Positions 9,726-49,413 of a DNA stretch of 64,000 bases are shown here, one piece after another. Within the stretch, counting starts at the first letter, position 1, and each line of letters begins with the position of its first letter. The translations under genes were made by a program, and so were the position numbers. Origin of the DNA: a virus. The notes beneath the pieces are model-generated. The model did not search any database. It was given only the letters and a program-made list of their open reading frames with translations, and was not told the origin of the DNA. The DNA lies in IMG/VR virus record IMGVR_UViG_3300019487_000019, positions 119,278-183,277 of that record. One strand, 5' to 3'.

Positions 9726-10020
9726 GCTTGAAAATCATAACCCCATTGCTTTCAACGATTATGTTAGATGAAGGAACAGGAAGCACTTCTGACCGTGTAA
9801 TTCCGTGATATGTAAACGTCATGTCCCAGTTGATACACTCTCGATATTCGGTTAGGAATGTTAGTGAACTAATATGGAGGGCAAAAAATGGGTCGCTAAT
9901 TCGTTTCGCAGTGTTGATCGACGTAGTCTTTGAACGTATTTCAACCTCCGTGACTTTCGGATTACGAAAGACATTTCGGTGGTCTGTACCTTCTGCAGTG
10001 TTCTTTAGTACTACCTTCAT
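9721..10020 (-). CDS. Hypothetical protein coupled to gp46
   Basis: A 99-residue protein of unknown function, predicted mostly beta strand with alternating polar and hydrophobic residues. Its ATG overlaps the gp46 stop (ATGA) and a GGAGGA sits just upstream, so translation is coupled to the recombination nuclease. Co-translation suggests, but does not prove, a role in recombination or repair. No motif recognised. Confidence 0.7.
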   Translation of the reverse strand: MKVVLKNTAEGTDHRNVFRNPKVTEVEIRSKTTSINTAKRISDPFFALHISSLTFLTEYRECINWDMTFTYHGITRSEVLPVPSSNIIVESNGVMIFKP

Positions 10021-11768
10021 ACTTCCTCCACAATATATGAGAATCCCTTGCTAAACTGGACTGTAAGAGTGTGGTCAAAGGCTCGGTCAATCTCATCTCT
10101 ATGTGATATGATATATAGCGACAATCCTTCGTCTCGTGCCTTTCTTTTTAGCAAACGAGCCGATGCTTGAACGCCAATCGTATCAAGACCATGATCCAAT
10201 ACTTCATCCAACATGCAAACATTGACTTTTTCATGTAGATTTTGAAGGACATCTTTGAAAGCTAATGCCAAACCAAAGTTGACACGTGCTTGTTGCCCGT
10301 TTGAGAGACCTCCAAAGGTCAGATCGCGACCAAATTGTGTGATTTTCGCCGACATTTCATGCGTAAATTCGACCTTATGTGGTAGGCCTAAAGTGGTCAG
10401 GTAGTGCTGTAAACGTGCATTTAGGAACGGTATATTCTTATTCAACAGTGTTTTGCGAACAAAGCTATCCTTTTTGGTCAGCAGTTTTAACAGGAATTGC
10501 TGGTGTTCGAGCAGTTTTGTTGCCTCATTTACATCTGCATAGTCGATCCTTTCGAATACAACAGCCTGTAGTTCTTCCAAAGGCTTGTGATGAGGATTCG
10601 GTGTCTGCTCTAGTTGTTCGATTTTGGTACGAATATTGGCGCTCTCTTGGCGTATTAGAAGCAATTCATCGAGATTATCAACAGTGATTTGCTTCTTTAC
10701 ATCCTTTATAGCATGTGTAAAATTCACTACTTGCTCATCAACTAGCTTCTTTTGATCAGCAAATGCTAGCATTTGATCCTCAAGTCCCGTGGCTTTCTTC
10801 TCATAGGTATCAACTTGATCGAGACCAGCAGCAAAATGTTGCTTACATCGGGGGCAAGTTTCACCCCGCAGGTGGATGATTTCATGCTGTGTGTCTTTGA
10901 GGTTGGTTGTTATTGTCCGAATATGTGCTGTCAATTCCCGTTGAGTATTCAACGTAGCATTTAATTGATCGTTCACGTCCTTTAGGTTCTGTTGTAAAGC
11001 ACGTTGCTCATCAAAGTTTACTGACTCAACACGCTTTAGCTTTGCTTTCAATCCCTTAATTGTGTCTTTATTTTGTGTAGCCCATGTGAGTAGGTGGCGG
11101 TGTAAGCCAGCAACTTGCTGAGCATGTCGCGTTTGTTCCTGTTCTTGAGCAGAAATCTTTGCTCGCTGAACGTCGATTCGCTTCTCGGTATCTTTGATCA
11201 GCTCTTTTAAAGTGAGGGCCTTCTGTGAAAGAGCTGTGAGCCCAAACAATTCTTCGATGATTGCTGTCTGTTCGGTTGTTTTCAAGTTCAAAAACGGTAA
11301 GTGAGACGCGGAGAACACAACAATACGAACGAATAGCTCGTAAGGCATTCCAATAATCTTGGCAATCAATGCATTTGCAGCATTGGCACTATCTGGTGTG
11401 ATGTCTTTTCCATCTTCAAAAACGTAGACCGTATTACCAGCCGCACCAGCTTTTGCTTTTCTTGTGCGTTGTATCCTGTACGTCTTCTTTCGAATCACAA
11501 ATTCAACAACAACTTCCATATTCTTTTTATTGATGTTGTTGACTAGATCGTCTTTGGCAAGGTCGGACACAGGCAAGTCATACACAGCATACGTTAGTGC
11601 GTTGATGATTGCACTCTTGCCGACACCATTTGAGCCTTTGCCTTCGGCTGTGTTGTCTAGATTTTCTCCAACAATGAGCGACGTTCCAGGTCGTTGCAAC
11701 TGAAAGAGCGTTGTATTGTTGCCGTACGACAGGAAGTTTCGAAATGTTAGTGTCTTGAACTCAATCAT
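10017..11768 (-). CDS. gp46: Recombination endonuclease large subunit gp46 (SbcC/Rad50-like ATPase)
   Basis: This 583-residue SMC-like ATPase pairs with gp47 to resect DNA ends in recombination-dependent replication. The Walker A motif GSNGVGKS is at residues 45-52, two coiled-coil arms flank a zinc hook ETCPRCKQHF in the middle, and the C-terminus carries the ABC signature GGLSNGQQAR and the Walker B VCMLDEVLDHGLD. The reading frame is open a further 66 codons upstream, but that overlaps the NADAR gene; the ATG at 11768 begins MIEFKTLTFRNFLSYG as in the family. It overlaps the NADAR gene by 8 bases and the next gene by 4, so it is part of one translationally coupled operon. Confidence 0.95.
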   Translation of the reverse strand: MIEFKTLTFRNFLSYGNNTTLFQLQRPGTSLIVGENLDNTAEGKGSNGVGKSAIINALTYAVYDLPVSDLAKDDLVNNINKKNMEVVVEFVIRKKTYRIQRTRKAKAGAAGNTVYVFEDGKDITPDSANAANALIAKIIGMPYELFVRIVVFSASHLPFLNLKTTEQTAIIEELFGLTALSQKALTLKELIKDTEKRIDVQRAKISAQEQEQTRHAQQVAGLHRHLLTWATQNKDTIKGLKAKLKRVESVNFDEQRALQQNLKDVNDQLNATLNTQRELTAHIRTITTNLKDTQHEIIHLRGETCPRCKQHFAAGLDQVDTYEKKATGLEDQMLAFADQKKLVDEQVVNFTHAIKDVKKQITVDNLDELLLIRQESANIRTKIEQLEQTPNPHHKPLEELQAVVFERIDYADVNEATKLLEHQQFLLKLLTKKDSFVRKTLLNKNIPFLNARLQHYLTTLGLPHKVEFTHEMSAKITQFGRDLTFGGLSNGQQARVNFGLALAFKDVLQNLHEKVNVCMLDEVLDHGLDTIGVQASARLLKRKARDEGLSLYIISHRDEIDRAFDHTLTVQFSKGFSYIVEEV

Positions 11769-12219
11769 GCTCAGCTCGAATCTCGGCTCGCACTTCCATC
11801 CAGAGCGTGCCGAGCCTGTTTTGTCCTTTTTGGTCCTTGCCCCACCCCCAAAAATCATCTCGCCAGCTATCCTCAACAAGAATACGATCGCCCGTTTCGA
11901 GTAATTTTCGACGAACATATTCGTGTTGGTGGGCTTTTGCAAGGAGGATCTCACGCATGATGTCAATTTTCACAACATTCCAATCGTGTCGATAGTATGT
12001 TTTGTGTTTTTCGGCAATCTTGAAAGCTTCATGTGCAGAAATAGCTTTCAAAATTAACTCTTGGATGTGTGGATAGTTTGGAAATTTCTCCCAATGATAT
12101 GCAGCTTCGCTTGTATCAAATCTGTGGCCCTTCCACTGAAGTGTAAAGGCAGAAAAGTTTGATAGAACATAAAACTCTTGTTCATAAAAGAAAACGTGGG
12201 TATCTGTGTCGAGTTTCAT
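11761..12219 (-). CDS. NADAR-domain protein (YbiA-like)
   Basis: The 152-residue protein shows the NADAR/YbiA pattern: FYVLSNFSAF near the start, TSEAAYHWEKFP, and a C-terminal FWGWGKDQKGQNRLG followed by LWMEVR. NADAR proteins are N-glycosidases acting on ADP-ribose-like or riboflavin-pathway compounds; some remove ADP-ribose from guanine in nucleic acid, countering DarT-type toxins. It is inserted between gp47 and gp46 with a 4-base overlap upstream and 8 bases downstream, so it is made together with the DNA-end processing complex. A role protecting phage DNA from host ADP-ribosylation is inference; metabolite clean-up is the alternative. Confidence 0.88.
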   Translation of the reverse strand: MKLDTDTHVFFYEQEFYVLSNFSAFTLQWKGHRFDTSEAAYHWEKFPNYPHIQELILKAISAHEAFKIAEKHKTYYRHDWNVVKIDIMREILLAKAHQHEYVRRKLLETGDRILVEDSWRDDFWGWGKDQKGQNRLGTLWMEVRAEIRAEHD

Positions 12220-13271
12220 GATTGTAGTTTCCTATATTGTTCCACAAGCATATCATTCTCAATGTGTTCGCTTTTGATCTCTTTTAACATTGCGACGACC
12301 AGTTCATCAACTGTATCAAGTTCGGTGTTTTCATTTACAACAACTGACGTTTCTGTATTAACAACCGCCTCGGCAATGTCCGCGGATTCCTCTGTAATGA
12401 ATTCACGCAGGTGATAATCCTCGATGAATTTGGCTCGAAGGTAAGTGCTTTCCTCGAATGAGATGGGTACGTCCATCACGCATCGTACCCTAGCTTCGGG
12501 TGTGATTACAACTGTCTTGTCAAGGACGTCTGTAAGCCGTGTCTTGATATATCGGGGGCATTCTTTCCAGTTCTTATACGTAATTTTTGCTGTCTCGTGG
12601 TCGTAGATCATCATACCGCGTTCCAAATCGCCAGCATCGCCGAAGTCCATTGGGAAGCAATTGCCCATGTAGACAATATTGTCTTGCGTTTGGCGTTTAT
12701 GGAAGTGTCCAGAAATGATATGTTTTGGCCCTTTGAAGTCCAGAGGATTTGGGCCGGTATTCATTTTGACATTGTACCCCGTGACGACAAATCCCTGGAA
12801 TTCAAAATGGCCAGCCCAGAATGGGACCTTCAAATACTCGGTAAGGGACGGGTATTCATCATGGAACATATACGGGCTGAAAAGAGCACCATCGCCAATC
12901 TCCGGCACGATAAGAGGCTGATCGATGATTTTGAAATTGTTGAATTCTTGAAAAGGAATGACCGAGTGAACCTCTCGAGTGTGGCGATGATATAGGTCGT
13001 GATTGCCAACACAAAAGAAAACCGGGAGACCAAGATTGTTAAGTTTCTTGGCTCCCTGATATGAGTAGTTTAGTGTTGCAATATTAAGGGCACTTCGATT
13101 TTCATTCCAGTCGCCCAGGAAAGCAACGTAGTCAATTGTTGTATCGGCCTTGACTTGTTCACAAAACCAATCAATGAACTTTAAACAGTCTTCATTGTGC
13201 AGTTGTGAGTTCGCTTTTTTCCCGAAGTGAATGTCGGTTGCGAAGCTGCCCTTACGCAGCTTTTTTGTCAT
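12216..13271 (-). CDS. gp47: Recombination endonuclease small subunit gp47 (SbcD/Mre11-like)
   Basis: A 351-residue calcineurin-type phosphoesterase, the nuclease partner of gp46. The metal-binding motifs appear in order: SFATDIHFG (D-x-H), AFLGDWNENRS (GD), FCVGNHDLYHRH (GNHD) and HIISGHFHKRQ (GHxH). Gene order gp55-gp47-gp46 is as in T4, with a NADAR gene inserted between gp47 and gp46. The last 70 residues are acidic and family-variable. The start at 13271 is 21 bases after the sigma factor stop. Confidence 0.93.
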   Translation of the reverse strand: MTKKLRKGSFATDIHFGKKANSQLHNEDCLKFIDWFCEQVKADTTIDYVAFLGDWNENRSALNIATLNYSYQGAKKLNNLGLPVFFCVGNHDLYHRHTREVHSVIPFQEFNNFKIIDQPLIVPEIGDGALFSPYMFHDEYPSLTEYLKVPFWAGHFEFQGFVVTGYNVKMNTGPNPLDFKGPKHIISGHFHKRQTQDNIVYMGNCFPMDFGDAGDLERGMMIYDHETAKITYKNWKECPRYIKTRLTDVLDKTVVITPEARVRCVMDVPISFEESTYLRAKFIEDYHLREFITEESADIAEAVVNTETSVVVNENTELDTVDELVVAMLKEIKSEHIENDMLVEQYRKLQS

Positions 13272-13291: not shown

Positions 13292-15166
13292 TTAGTACTG
13301 CAGTGGTTGATTATCATCTTCCGCAGGAGGGTTGTCAACGGTTGTCGCAGACGCAGGGGCCTTTGGTAATCGCTCGAGGGCATCTGCAATCTGTTTATTG
13401 AGGTGGAAATCATCATCTCCGTCGCGGCCTTCACCTTCACCATAACCATGAGAAGGATTGAGACCTTGATCAATGATGAGCAGATCTCGAATAACACGTT
13501 GTCGTTTCTCTTGGTTTAGATACTGAATGAAAGAGTGTTTGATGCACTGTGTAAAGAAAGCGAAAGCATTGCTACTTTTTGCAGGATCGAAACTGTTCCA
13601 TGTTCGAACAAGCATCATCATTGCATATCCCTGCATATCCTCGTTGTATGTATTCCCTGTGACGTAGATATACTTGCCACGCCGAGCGACAAAAGTACCA
13701 TACTCAGTCCGTGGGCACCATATCTGTCCGGTGTATTGCTCGGTGGGGAGGTTCGGTTTGTTGTTCCTACGACCGCCGGCTGCTTGCTTTCCACCGTGAA
13801 AGTCAATCCACTCCGCACGACATGTAGTTTTTGGTTCACTATAAATGTTCACGCTGAGTACATCACTAACACCACCACAGGGATTTTTTCTGCTAATGGG
13901 TGTTTTGTACGTCATTGGTGTAACAGAAACGGTCTGCCCCGCTAACGTACAGAGCATTAGGAATGCGTCAATATGTTCGGGGGACTTTTGGACGTATGAC
14001 ATCCCTCCTGATGGTCGTATCCACCCATCACCAGCCACCATAGTTTTGATAAGTAATAGTCGTTGTGTTTGAATAAGGTCTAAAAGAAATTCACATGCAG
14101 GTACACGGGACGGAGCAATTGTTTGATGTATTTTTGATATCCAGGTGCCTGTACAGTTAAAGAGAACAATCCCCTGATTGTTCAGATATTCCTTATGGGG
14201 AATAGCGAGTGATTGTAATAGTTGGCGGATTTGGTTAGCTTTGGCTCCCTGTTTTTGGGAAATTTGTATCGAGTGTCGCTTTTTAGAGTTAGTGCTGTAG
14301 TATCCTTCAGTAATGCACCACCCTACAAGCTCCACAACATTGTCGGAATAGATAATCCTACCATCTGCCACCGGTTGTCCCATTAAAACGATGTGTTCAT
14401 TGCAGATGATATCCTCAACGGGAATCAAACCACGTTCCATAGAAACAAACTTATGATTTGGTGTTACGAGAGCGTCAAGTCCTTGTGTTGAGAGTTTGTG
14501 CATTGTGTTTGAATAGTCGCTTCGAAAGACTTCAAGAACTTTTGACCATACGAGCTGTTGTGTTTCCAGACTATACGAAAGAATCTCATCGTCTGTTGTC
14601 ATTTGTTGATGTGTTTTCCAACCACTTTTTGTTAATGCTAGTGTGGCACCATCAACACAGTAATTAACGAAATTGCCCTTCTTTGCATACTTGGCACATA
14701 GCAACTGAAGCATTTGCGCTAGTTTGTTTGTCATCTGTTTATCTTTCTTGCTATGTTTGACTTCAGCAAGAAGGTCTCTATTGTTCAAGTAGATGTTTTT
14801 TGGAACTACTTGCGGTGGTCGTTCAAGAACAAGTTCAGGCGGTGGTGGAAGTGCTTTGACCTTTGGTCGAACCGGACCAGGAACCTTGTAAATGATTTCT
14901 TTGACTTTTTCAGGCTCCGCAGGAGTGTGTCGATTCAAAACTGCTGTCAGTTTTTTCCGTTCTTCGCGTCGCGCTTTACGTACAGCTCGTTTTTGCTCTT
15001 GCTTTTTACGATGGTAGTACGAGAGACCCTCTTGTTTTAGTTTTTGTTTTTTGGTGAGTTTGGGTTTACGTGGAGTAGCTGATTTTACGACACGCTTAAC
15101 GATAGTTTTCTTACTCTTTGCGGCTTTGACTTTCTTGGAACGGACCTTATTCTTCGTTTTTTTCAT
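13292..15166 (-). CDS. gp55: Late-transcription sigma factor gp55, interrupted by an intein
   Basis: The exteins join as KGNFVNY|TYNEDMQGYAMM, followed by AKSSNAFAFFTQCIKHSFIQ, the region 2 core of T4-family gp55, which directs host RNA polymerase to late promoters together with clamp gp45. A 336-residue intein splits it. After splicing about 288 residues remain, against about 185 in T4; the extra is a very Lys/Arg-rich N-terminal extension of roughly 100 residues and a Pro-rich linker. The frame is open back to a GTG at 15229, but I use the ATG at 15166 because AAGGG lies about 9 bases upstream. Downstream genes gp47 and gp46 keep T4 order. Confidence 0.88.
   Translation of the reverse strand: MKKTKNKVRSKKVKAAKSKKTIVKRVVKSATPRKPKLTKKQKLKQEGLSYYHRKKQEQKRAVRKARREERKKLTAVLNRHTPAEPEKVKEIIYKVPGPVRPKVKALPPPPELVLERPPQVVPKNIYLNNRDLLAEVKHSKKDKQMTNKLAQMLQLLCAKYAKKGNFVNYCVDGATLALTKSGWKTHQQMTTDDEILSYSLETQQLVWSKVLEVFRSDYSNTMHKLSTQGLDALVTPNHKFVSMERGLIPVEDIICNEHIVLMGQPVADGRIIYSDNVVELVGWCITEGYYSTNSKKRHSIQISQKQGAKANQIRQLLQSLAIPHKEYLNNQGIVLFNCTGTWISKIHQTIAPSRVPACEFLLDLIQTQRLLLIKTMVAGDGWIRPSGGMSYVQKSPEHIDAFLMLCTLAGQTVSVTPMTYKTPISRKNPCGGVSDVLSVNIYSEPKTTCRAEWIDFHGGKQAAGGRRNNKPNLPTEQYTGQIWCPRTEYGTFVARRGKYIYVTGNTYNEDMQGYAMMMLVRTWNSFDPAKSSNAFAFFTQCIKHSFIQYLNQEKRQRVIRDLLIIDQGLNPSHGYGEGEGRDGDDDFHLNKQIADALERLPKAPASATTVDNPPAEDDNQPLQY
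13652..14659 (-). mobile_element. LAGLIDADG intein in the gp55 sigma factor gene
   Basis: The 336-residue element begins with Cys (CVDGATLAL) and ends YIYVTGN before Thr. Block B is VTPNHKFV. Two LAGLIDADG-like helices are present: VELVGWCITEGYY at intein residues 109-121 and LLIKTMVAGDGWI at 202-214, spaced as in an intact two-motif homing endonuclease. The residue before the terminal Asn is Gly, as in several other functional inteins. The insertion lies inside the core-binding region, so the unspliced sigma factor is unlikely to work. Confidence 0.93.
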
Positions 15167-15241
15167 CGAGAGCGCCCTTTTATTGTTGTTTTTGGTGGGG
15201 TTCCTTTTATTATAGCAGGTTTTTTCCACCAGTCAACGCTG

Positions 15242-15249
15242 AATAAATA
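15242..15249 (+). promoter_or_regulatory. T4-type late promoter box (AATAAATA)
   Basis: Plus-strand AATAAATA about 30 bases before the first gene of the long baseplate operon, in the divergent gap with gp55. Confidence 0.65.
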
Positions 15250-45615: not shown

Positions 45616-48600
45616 CTAGCCAAAAAGATCATCAAACAACAAATCTTGTTTCGTTGGTGTTCGCTTTCCTATTGCTTTCAAAATGTTTTGGAGTGGATTG
45701 TCAACTAATCGTTCAATGTGAGCATCGTAGTCAATGTCAAAATTTTCTAGGAACCACGGTGGCACAACTTCAATGTCGGTTGGAAGAGCAATACTTTTGA
45801 ATTTCGAACCGCCGAGTTGATGAAGTGCATCGAGGTAAAAGACCTTGATTTTCATGTCATTTGTGATTGGTGGACTGATCTTATCTCCGTACTCCTTCAA
45901 ACATTGATTGTAATGAATTGCTGCTGCCACGTGGCCGGGCAGACGCGTATCTTCACCGAATTGTCGATATTGCCTCTCATAATCTTCAATACCATGAATT
46001 CCCTTGGGAAGTCCAATTTGCATCACATCCTTTACAGCGCGCAGCTCATCTTTGTAATTGACAACCTCTCTAGCCACAGTTTCCCACGAGCTACCCTTCA
46101 GATATCCCGCAACAAACGCATTAAGTCGATCAGCGATAGGACGTGGCAATGTGGTCTTTTTTGTGTCAAGACCCATGACCTTCATACTATCTGACGGTTT
46201 ACCCTCCTTGTCAACAACATGCAATACATAGCGTTTCTTATCAACTAAAATCCCACGGTCCGATATGATCTCTCTACCGACTTTAATCACCTCATCGAAG
46301 CCTTCATTACACAAAAAAGTCTGTTGTAAGAATGCTTTATATGACTCGTTGACCTTTTTCGCAACTGCATCTGCAACTTTGACAGCGTCTTGGACGTTTG
46401 TACAATGTGTTCGGAAATATGTGCTATCAGTGTTGTGAACAAGTATTTCATTCGCATAAAACAGATGAGTATCATTAACTTCAATATCATAGACGTATTG
46501 TTCTCTTGGGGGCAGAGCTTGAACTTTTAAACATTTAGCAAATGAAAGATTGTATCGTGTTTCTGCTTGTTTTTTCCGTCCCTCATTCCACTTCTTTGTT
46601 TTTCGTGGTTGTATAAATCCTACCAAAGAGTAAAAGTCTTTTTGATTTCTAATTGTAAGTCTTGTTGAAAATGTTCCCGTTGGTTGCCCGTTATAGGAAT
46701 TGGGTGTGTTTTCTGTAAACCACGTTGATGATATCCCACACAACAGCAATAATCTATGAATGTCTTTAATGTGTTGCTCGTTGACACTTGCAAGGCCAAC
46801 AACCTTTTGATTATTTGACCAACCATCAGCAGAAAACCAACCACGCAAAAAGGCACAAATATTTTCAGTGGTGTCAGTAAATAACCAACGTGGAATAATC
46901 TTTTGGTTTTCTTCGTAGAGATGTTTTCGCAGCGTTTTGCGAAGCTTTACAGAAGAAATTTGAATATCGTGACCGTTTGGCTTAACATACCACGATGAAA
47001 TCCAACCATCTTCCTTTAGAGGTTGTAAAAGATTCGAACAAACGACATTTAAATCCTGTCTTCCAACTGAAAGTAATGTTCCGCCCGTTTTAGTTTTATC
47101 TACATAACCATCGCCCATAACATAGCCCATTAATGTATAAAGATGTTTTGAATAATCGGTTTGACAAGTTCCTTTAAAGGGAATGTAGGGAAGAGTTAGT
47201 AATGATGAACAAATGTTAGTTGGTTTTGTTTCTTGCAAAAAATCTCCTGACGTTTTTCTCTGTTGGGTGTTTTTGTATGTTATTAAAGAGTGGTCTTCAG
47301 TCAAGTCCACATATTGACGATTTGTAATCCACACGCGATATAATTGTTTGGTTGTTTTATGACGCATCACGTATTTAATTGGTCTAAAACACGTTTGTTT
47401 TGTTTCTTTATCGTAAGTAAGCGCTTGTTGGTCTTGTAAGAAACAATATTCTTTCTTGTCAATTTGTTTATTGGTTGCTGTAAATAAACTTTCAATCGTT
47501 CTTGGACCTTTAACTGTCTCTATCAAAGTATCACCAGCAACACTGTCGCCATATAGAACCGATTCTGCCATAAAGCGACCGTTGAACACTGGTCCACCTA
47601 ATGCAGCCGCATCAGCGACACCAGCTTCACTAGCACTTTTCGGTGTATCATATTGAGGAAACTCAACATTATAATTGCCGTCAAGAATTTCAGCAACTTT
47701 TCGACATTGGTGTCGTAGAATCATGCGGCCAGTCCCAGTTGTACTCTCTCCCATCCGAAGATCGTAGAAGCGGAAATACAAATTGGTGAGCGCCCCGTAC
47801 AGTGAGTTCAATTTGATCTTGAACACATACTGGAGACGATCATAATAGTCAGCCTTATCGTGATCATCTGCAGCTTCAGCTTCCTTCTTCATCGCTTGAT
47901 ATTTCCGTCGCATCGCATACCATTCGGCAAGAATTGTCGGAATGATTCCTTGTTCGTTTTGATCAAATACCGTACCAAATCCACTGACGGCCCACTTTCG
48001 TTTCTTCAACCAGTCTCGAAATTCATCACCGGACATTACTACGACCTCTCCCGTTTCGAGTGTTAAATGAAGCTGAGCAAAAGTCCCCTTGGCAATTGCT
48101 TCGGTTGCTTTTTCCTCTTCACGAAACTGACCACGAAGTGTTTCCGGGGAGATATTGATAGCTCGAATAGCACTTGGATACAGAGAGTTGATATCGATGG
48201 AAGCAATGAATTCATGCAGTCCAACTTGTGGATATAGTACAAGCGCTCCTGCAATTTGTTGATCAACGGCTGGTGGCTTTGCATTTTGTACAACACGTTT
48301 CAACACGTGATGACAATAGTTAATGATAGCAAACTCTGCTAGTTTCAAAGTGCCCGTGACGTGCTCGAATAATCCGGTTGAAATGTGATACATTTGATTT
48401 GCAAGCTCGATGTAGCCAAGCTTTTGTTCGAAACCGTGCAGAATTTCAACATCTCGAATGTTGTATCGTGTGAAGAACCCGTAGTTCTTCCGATACAAAT
48501 CATGTAATGAGCCTTGATATTCCAACTTTGGAAGTCCCAGACCAACCTCTTGTTCGATTGATGCTAGTTTGTATGATGGTTTATCAGCTACTTCGTATTT

Positions 48601-49413
48601 TTTGTATAGTAATTGATAGTCAACACGGATTCGACCTTCAAGATCGATCGTATCACCAAGTTTCTTTCGTTCTCCTGTTTGCACATCAACAATAGCTTTG
48701 GAGAACACTTCGCGCCAGGTTGGCTTGCAACCCCGAAAATCGAGTTTTGAAAGCGGAATCTTGTAGCGCTCCATGCGCTTTGCGATGTATGGCATATCGA
48801 ACAAATCACTGTACCAACCAGAAAGAACGTCAGCATCACTAATCTCATCAATCATCTTGTTGAGAAGTTCGAGTTCATTTTCACAGACGTGTAGTCGAAG
48901 TTTATATGTTGTTGGAATAGGTACGTCCTTGCCGATTTCTTCAAGTAGTCGTTCGGTTGTCCATCCTGCTTCTGGTGGAACGGTGTAGACAACCAATTCA
49001 TTGCTCCATTCGTGAAACATAGCAATTGAACTAATGGGAGCATAGGGATTTTGAACGCCTGCGAAGCCCAGTTCGGGGTTATAATCAACCTCAATGTCTA
49101 GAAACGTGATATGAAGCTTTGGTGCTGGTTTGGCATAGTATGCCATTGAAAGAACGCGTTGTTCTGATGCGATGTCACTTTCGTACAAAGTGTGTCCATT
49201 GCGTTCGTATTCTTGACGTTTGTTGTAAAAATCGCTTTTGCTAATGCATTCAACTCTGGAAACTCGATCTCCATAAATCGTTCGATACTTGCCATTGACG
49301 TTATCAATGTAGAAATAGTGCGGTGCCGGGTAAACGACTTCTGTTCGGCCATTCTCGTCTCGCTCCCAAACGATGACGTCCTCGTTTTTCGTGATTGCAG
49401 AAATATAACTCAT
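45616..49413 (-). CDS. gp43: DNA polymerase gp43 (family B), interrupted by an intein
   Basis: The 1265-codon ORF is the replicative polymerase with proofreading exonuclease. Exonuclease motif FLDIEVD is at residues 104-110; polymerase motif A is DINSLYPSAIR (407-417), motif B KIKLNSLYGALTN (532-544), and motif C is split as YGD|TDS by a 371-residue intein (624-994). Without the intein the protein is 894 residues, almost the same as T4 gp43 (about 898). The C-terminal end DLLFDDLFG fits a clamp-binding tail. The catalytic Asp pair is brought together only after splicing, so unspliced polymerase should be inactive. Confidence 0.96.
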   Translation of the reverse strand: MSYISAITKNEDVIVWERDENGRTEVVYPAPHYFYIDNVNGKYRTIYGDRVSRVECISKSDFYNKRQEYERNGHTLYESDIASEQRVLSMAYYAKPAPKLHITFLDIEVDYNPELGFAGVQNPYAPISSIAMFHEWSNELVVYTVPPEAGWTTERLLEEIGKDVPIPTTYKLRLHVCENELELLNKMIDEISDADVLSGWYSDLFDMPYIAKRMERYKIPLSKLDFRGCKPTWREVFSKAIVDVQTGERKKLGDTIDLEGRIRVDYQLLYKKYEVADKPSYKLASIEQEVGLGLPKLEYQGSLHDLYRKNYGFFTRYNIRDVEILHGFEQKLGYIELANQMYHISTGLFEHVTGTLKLAEFAIINYCHHVLKRVVQNAKPPAVDQQIAGALVLYPQVGLHEFIASIDINSLYPSAIRAINISPETLRGQFREEEKATEAIAKGTFAQLHLTLETGEVVVMSGDEFRDWLKKRKWAVSGFGTVFDQNEQGIIPTILAEWYAMRRKYQAMKKEAEAADDHDKADYYDRLQYVFKIKLNSLYGALTNLYFRFYDLRMGESTTGTGRMILRHQCRKVAEILDGNYNVEFPQYDTPKSASEAGVADAAALGGPVFNGRFMAESVLYGDSVAGDTLIETVKGPRTIESLFTATNKQIDKKEYCFLQDQQALTYDKETKQTCFRPIKYVMRHKTTKQLYRVWITNRQYVDLTEDHSLITYKNTQQRKTSGDFLQETKPTNICSSLLTLPYIPFKGTCQTDYSKHLYTLMGYVMGDGYVDKTKTGGTLLSVGRQDLNVVCSNLLQPLKEDGWISSWYVKPNGHDIQISSVKLRKTLRKHLYEENQKIIPRWLFTDTTENICAFLRGWFSADGWSNNQKVVGLASVNEQHIKDIHRLLLLCGISSTWFTENTPNSYNGQPTGTFSTRLTIRNQKDFYSLVGFIQPRKTKKWNEGRKKQAETRYNLSFAKCLKVQALPPREQYVYDIEVNDTHLFYANEILVHNTDSTYFRTHCTNVQDAVKVADAVAKKVNESYKAFLQQTFLCNEGFDEVIKVGREIISDRGILVDKKRYVLHVVDKEGKPSDSMKVMGLDTKKTTLPRPIADRLNAFVAGYLKGSSWETVAREVVNYKDELRAVKDVMQIGLPKGIHGIEDYERQYRQFGEDTRLPGHVAAAIHYNQCLKEYGDKISPPITNDMKIKVFYLDALHQLGGSKFKSIALPTDIEVVPPWFLENFDIDYDAHIERLVDNPLQNILKAIGKRTPTKQDLLFDDLFG
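46432..47544 (-). mobile_element. LAGLIDADG intein at the YGD/TDS site of DNA polymerase
   Basis: The element starts with Ser (SVAGDTLIETVKG) and ends EILVHN before Thr. Block B is LTEDHSLI, and YVYDIEV with HLFYANEI form blocks F and G. Two LAGLIDADG motifs, LYTLMGYVMGDGY (around intein residue 135-147) and CAFLRGWFSADGW (230-242), are intact. The insertion site and Ser start are those of archaeal family B polymerase inteins at motif C, so it probably shares ancestry with them. Confidence 0.95.

Follow-up and report, generated by a model that had tools for sequence, protein, structure and literature searches.

Within the 64-kb window, as we call the whole stretch of viral DNA analysed here, an insert lies in the gene for gp55, the sigma factor for late transcription in T4-type phages, and the locus raises the question of whether this insert is a functional intein and what its presence would mean for late transcription. 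The gp55 precursor gene lies on the minus strand (13292..15166) and encodes 624 aa from an ATG at 15166. The frame is uninterrupted by stops from 13292 to 15229, where an alternative GTG start occurs. This GTG is overlapped by a sigma70-like promoter (TTGACT-16-TATAAT, 15209..15236, minus strand, 11/12 matches, TG before the -10 box) reading into gp55, which makes the ATG the likelier start. Downstream lie a gp47-like (SbcD) gene (12216..13271, minus strand), a conserved neighbour of gp55, and a gp46-like (SbcC) gene (10017..11966, minus strand).

The insert occupies 13652..14659 on the minus strand and encodes 336 residues, starting with C1, ending with GN336 and followed by Thr as the +1 residue; it is a single uninterrupted in-frame segment with exactly the boundaries given by an earlier sequence-only reading. 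Upstream of it the N-extein (14660..15166) comprises a Lys-rich tail and helices H1-H2 of sigma region 2, ending in ...GNFVNY, while the C-extein (13292..13651) opens with TYNEDMQG... and holds helices H3 and H4 and the C-terminal tail. Within the insert, on the same strand and with approximate internal boundaries, an N-terminal splicing (Hint) part with C1 and the block-B motif TPNH (14348..14659) is followed by a two-motif LAGLIDADG endonuclease domain (13790..14347), with motif P1 (ELVGWCITEGY) at 14300..14332 and motif P2 (LIKTMVAGDG) at 14024..14053, and by a C-terminal splicing part with blocks F and G (IWCPRTEYGTFVARRGKYIYVTGN, 13652..13789). A free-standing endonuclease gene was ruled out by the single open frame bounded by splicing blocks. 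The Lys-rich N-terminal extension (about 120 residues, 14801-15166, minus strand) is variable among relatives and absent from T4 gp55.

The extein join was then evaluated with the PHROG_234 profile ('late sigma transcription factor'). As encoded, the protein matched the profile on both intein flanks (8e-19), in two stretches totalling 69 bits. Removal of the insert in silico returned a single match running through the junction, with 98 bits and 1.3e-27 (residues 6-116 against profile positions 12-133), so that the two exteins join into a continuous gp55. More than 45 intein-free gp55 relatives in IMG/VR are contiguous exactly at the insertion point, reading ...NFxNY|[TS]YxxDM... with no gap at the junction; L016 is one example (...KKGNFINY|SYNEDMQGYAMMM), and the joined empty-site DNA reads ...GGCAATTTCGTTAATTAC|ACATACAACGAGGATATG.... 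The placement of the insert is far beyond chance, since all inspected loci found with the intein profile are gp55 genes carrying it at the same site. At the level of sequence, the segment 13652-14659 is thus confirmed as a class-1-type LAGLIDADG intein in gp55. Among the matches listed, the closest gp55 from an isolate is that of the Xanthomonas jumbo phage XacN1 (51.8% identity over 114 aa), a similarity hinting that the window phage may be related to XacN1.

The features needed for splicing were examined next to the predicted structure. Cys1 is invariant in intein alignments A1 and A3, block B has the TxxH form (TPNH) with H69 invariant in the alignments, and the terminal N336 is followed by Thr, while family members other than L083, which ends in Gln, show N|T or N|S at this junction; the splicing residues are conserved in 27 aligned members. 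The C-terminal half of the L083 intein (L083:1415-2668) also holds an additional segment resembling a helix-turn-helix. Pfam Intein_splicing matches the insert at 1e-5, which for the window copy is below the curated cut-off, and LAGLIDADG_3 (PF14528) matches at 8e-6, above the cut-off. In the predicted structure of the precursor (pLDDT 82), a Hint and a LAGLIDADG domain stand between H2 and H3, with the LAGLIDADG motif helices at 153-165 and 244-258. Its best Foldseek matches are inteins of the VMA type such as TliVMA (E 8e-13), PhoVMA and PI-SceI, together with PI-PfuI, and those of the endonuclease-bearing model also include I-DmoI; by this model and these matches, the intein has a Hint fold. 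The penultimate His is missing, being replaced by Gly (TGN) in the window intein and in most of its relatives. TGN is the norm of the gp55 intein family, and other phage inteins in this analysis end in the same way, among them the one in the NrdA-like gene of the window phage. Gly in place of His at this position lowers Asn cyclisation in some inteins. Effects on splicing have been described where the penultimate His is absent (PMC5874633), and its loss could slow the last splicing step. As this His is common and not defining, its absence lowers confidence in the rate of splicing and not in membership, and the window intein is probably capable of splicing.

The insertion site was mapped on the sigma fold by comparison with T4 gp55. 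A profile of the empty homologues matches T4 gp55 in PDB 7d7c (7d7c_F) with an E value of 1e-11, and the AlphaFold model of the empty homologue L016 matches the 7d7c gp55 chain with rmsd 1.7 and a Foldseek E value of 1e-4. Profile, fold and joined PHROG_234 match all identify a domain homologous to sigma region 2 and related to that of T4 gp55. Counting residues on the profile alignment, the site corresponds to T4 gp55 Y63|T64, in the short loop joining H2 and H3, so that the intein does split region 2, as had been proposed from the sequence. In T4 numbering it falls seven residues ahead of the H3 acids that bind the clamp helices of RNA polymerase; E70, D74 and E77 of T4 gp55 hold the beta-prime clamp helices (PMC7892883). 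With 336 residues between H2 and H3, the polymerase-binding face should therefore not form, and the structural models give good motivation for the view, put forward in the sequence-only reading, that late promoters would be unusable until gp55 is spliced.

T4-related phages have an ATAAATA-type late-promoter consensus in common (PMC2988020), and the window phage retains it. The window contains 15 ATAAATA motifs against 7.0 expected, a number reached in 1 of 100 shuffles, and 13 of the 15 have a same-strand gene start no more than 100 nt downstream (3.7% of positions expected, P 2e-17), at distances of 24-48 nt. These 13 positions provide a usable late-promoter map for an uncultivated phage. 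One ATAAATA core (15243..15249, plus strand) adjoins the gp55 promoter in divergent orientation and points away from gp55, with the start of a virion structural protein gene (PHROG_12050, 15280..16044, plus strand) 37 nt downstream. A search for a second gp55 in the 183-kb record, which may be incomplete, returned a single gp55 match. Because the genome keeps gp55-type late promoters, the phage must obtain a functional gp55, and splicing is the most likely route to it.

In order to define the distribution of the intein, related inteins were sought with the insert as query. The window intein itself retrieved seven relatives, and a profile of the eight (A1) was then used on IMG/VR. This returned 40 contigs with related inteins, every inspected one (the near-duplicates L054 and L056 not among them) in gp55 at the same site, besides a homologue in the isolate Synechococcus phage B23; as several of these contigs nearly duplicate one another, the independent phages number fewer than 40. 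The intein-bearing exteins form about five very divergent gp55 lineages, namely the window-like one, a cyanophage-like one (L067, L089), one with the junction NFINY|SYKEDM (L059-L066, L085), one with NWRGY|TYNDEM (L068-L082) and a T4-like one (L083). When the intein profile was run against genomes from 84,980 prokaryote species, no close relative emerged. A cellular origin of the intein was rejected on the same scan, whose one 22% partial match lay in a different protein, in Xenorhabdus, with no gp55 relative. Erwinia phage Hallingskeid (H27) was likewise discarded as a carrier, its annotated sigma factor being an ordinary 864-base gene with no room for an intein.

Evidence of mobility came from the comparison with L002. 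The two inteins are 92% identical in DNA (dS 0.27), whereas the exteins show 69% and 79% identity with dS of 1.3 or saturated, and the neighbouring genes 47-67% protein identity. The raised identity extends roughly 20 codons on each side of the intein, and these flanks look co-converted. Judged from these divergences, recent homing of the intein into the gp55 site is evident. Metagenome 3300019458 holds both L001, a contig with the window's own intein, and L003, which has an L002-type intein. The intein tree rejects a pairing of L002 with L004 (p 1.5e-4), which the extein trees tolerate (AU p 0.25 and 0.31), and conflict at the deeper level, among the lineages, reaches only marginal significance (p 0.044 and 0.042). 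Extein phylogeny was set aside as sole proof of homing; since the extein trees are poorly resolved around the window, the claim rests on the divergence contrast more than on topology. The endonuclease, which had been described as looking intact, bears this out, with P1 reading ITEGYY, P2 reading AGDGW, structural matches to PI-PfuI, PI-SceI, TliVMA and I-DmoI, and a domain dN of 0.033 and dS of 0.30 (dN/dS about 0.11); endonuclease and splicing parts together are under purifying selection, with dN/dS of about 0.1-0.17.

We therefore favour, with a probability of roughly 0.9, a splicing-competent homing intein of class-1 type that colonised the most conserved stretch of gp55. In the proposed sequence of events, the gp55-intein precursor would be made from the sigma70-like promoter, and in it the 336 residues would part H2 from H3 and keep the polymerase-binding face from assembling. 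The Hint domain, through Cys1, TPNH, the terminal Asn and Thr+1, would excise the insert and ligate NFVNY to TYNEDM, and the ligated gp55 would be active and recognise NATAAATA late promoters. When a phage with an empty gp55 allele infects the same cell, the LAGLIDADG domain would cut that allele at the same site, an activity to which the sequence points indirectly, and the intein would then be copied in together with its flanks. Sitting in a motif that is both essential and highly conserved, it should be protected from imprecise loss.

A further possibility is that the intein is more than selfish, and that the rate of splicing or a condition acting on it (redox, temperature, the Gly in place of His) delays late transcription as a timer. 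Conditional gp55 splicing would then be a developmental checkpoint, in which an inactive sigma precursor is made from an early promoter and late genes come on only after excision, a scheme that would explain why gp55 inteins lacking an endonuclease are retained. The insertion site directly ahead of the polymerase-binding helix fits such a role, and so does the persistence in several lineages of shortened inteins (L085-L087, 255 aa; L090, 236 aa; L091, 180 aa; L089, possibly shorter), which are endonuclease-reduced or apparently endonuclease-less, in L089 apparently so, and are candidates for natural mini-inteins. The Glu of P1 is lost in L035, L036 and L082, and two phage contigs, L070 (2360-4819) and L084, carry two gp55 inteins each, the second in the H4 helix region (junctions QIIKN|CLSGST...IHSFN|CFRRVL, where relatives without it read QIIKNCFRR). 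As mini-inteins and P1-mutated copies persist, retention does not depend on active homing. However, most relatives are intein-free and presumably time their late genes normally (8 of about 52 distinct group-A gp55 contigs have the intein), a homing cycle is expected to end with the endonuclease decayed and splicing kept, we found no conserved regulatory feature, and the inteins in the portal, DNA polymerase and NrdA genes of the window genome argue for a general intein load. A timer is thus unlikely, and the checkpoint built on it doubtful to the same degree.

Less probable still is a degenerate intein that no longer splices, in a gp55 gene that is dead or whose role has passed to a different late sigma factor. 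The absent penultimate His would agree with it, but the frame is open, exteins and intein are under purifying selection, the splicing residues are conserved across the aligned members, and the late promoters are kept in a record, possibly incomplete, with one gp55 match. A group I intron with an endonuclease gene, introns being common in T4-like phages, or an assembly artefact is hardly credible, as the insert reads in frame as one stop-free protein, carries splicing blocks at either end and recurs at the same base position in independent assemblies from different samples and in an isolate.

That isolate, Synechococcus phage B23, encodes in gp289 (MN695335.1) a homologous intein of 340 aa at the same gp55 site, and its gp47 and gp46 genes lie downstream of gp55 as in the window. 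The B23 intein is about 46% identical to that of the window and the exteins about 28-35%, and the +1 residue is Ser in B23 and Thr in the window. The record describes gp289 as 'hypothetical protein; phage T4-like gp55', leaving the intein unlabelled. LAGLIDADG inteins of phage TerL, portal, NrdA/NrdE, PolB and thymidylate synthase genes (Gordonia, Mycobacterium, Corynebacterium phages and others) have the same Hint and endonuclease architecture, a similar length and a conserved site in an important gene; however, they are about 24-30% identical to the gp55 intein and reside in enzymes of packaging, replication and metabolism, not in a transcription specificity factor. The VMA-type inteins (PI-SceI, TliVMA, PhoVMA) and PI-PfuI, although the best structural matches to the precursor model, show at most 16% identity in structural alignment and have other hosts and insertion sites, while T4 gp55 (PDB 7d7c, 7d7d), matched in fold and profile by the empty homologue, is intein-free. 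Inteins of eukaryotic RNA polymerase genes are found in core polymerase subunits and not in a sigma factor or a phage late regulator. They likewise belong to the transcription apparatus (PMC1635734).

The open-access literature searched yielded no description of an intein in a sigma factor or in gp55. Phage inteins are reported there in TerL, NrdA/NrdE/NrdD, PhoH and other genes. Relevant passages of the reports on CBB, Erwinia jumbo phages, Lactobacillus phages and Campylobacter phage IBB_35, and of a T4 mobile-element review and an ICP1 nuclease paper, report no gp55 intein. The suggestion that such an intein had gone undescribed therefore holds for the open-access literature, while the element itself belongs to a widespread family with a homologue already deposited, unlabelled, in B23. 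As a mechanism, the LAGLIDADG intein is of a known kind; in the open-access sources covered, neither its presence in this host protein and at this site nor the extent of the family seems to have been described.

Phage inteins described in these sources occupy packaging, replication, nucleotide-metabolism and similar genes, and gp55 is the single switch of T4-type late transcription. A recurrent gp55 intein puts a splicing step before a developmental decision, and the long-standing question of whether inteins can regulate their hosts thus becomes testable in a lytic cycle, with late transcripts as a sharp read-out and B23 as an isolate to work with. The family also yields new natural mini-inteins and covers the whole homing cycle at one orthologous site, with empty, active, endonuclease-dead, mini and double forms.

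Finally, further inteins were observed in the window phage. The DNA polymerase gene (gp43-like, 45616-49413, minus strand) holds, at the classic YGD|TDS site, an intein of LAGLIDADG type that has Ser as its first residue and VHN as its last three. The portal protein gene (gp20-like, 1850-4996, minus strand) has an intein with an HNH endonuclease (PHROG_7545) and the junctions VYNPH|CLALDT and VLN|SMNEDFFF. The gene for the ribonucleotide reductase large subunit (NrdA-like by motif, 62252-64000, plus strand) contains one full intein (TLMN|CISGDT...LTGN|CYVGP) and, truncated where the contig ends, the first part of another (GVLD|CLGGNT). Together with gp55, these genes bring the window phage to about five inteins.
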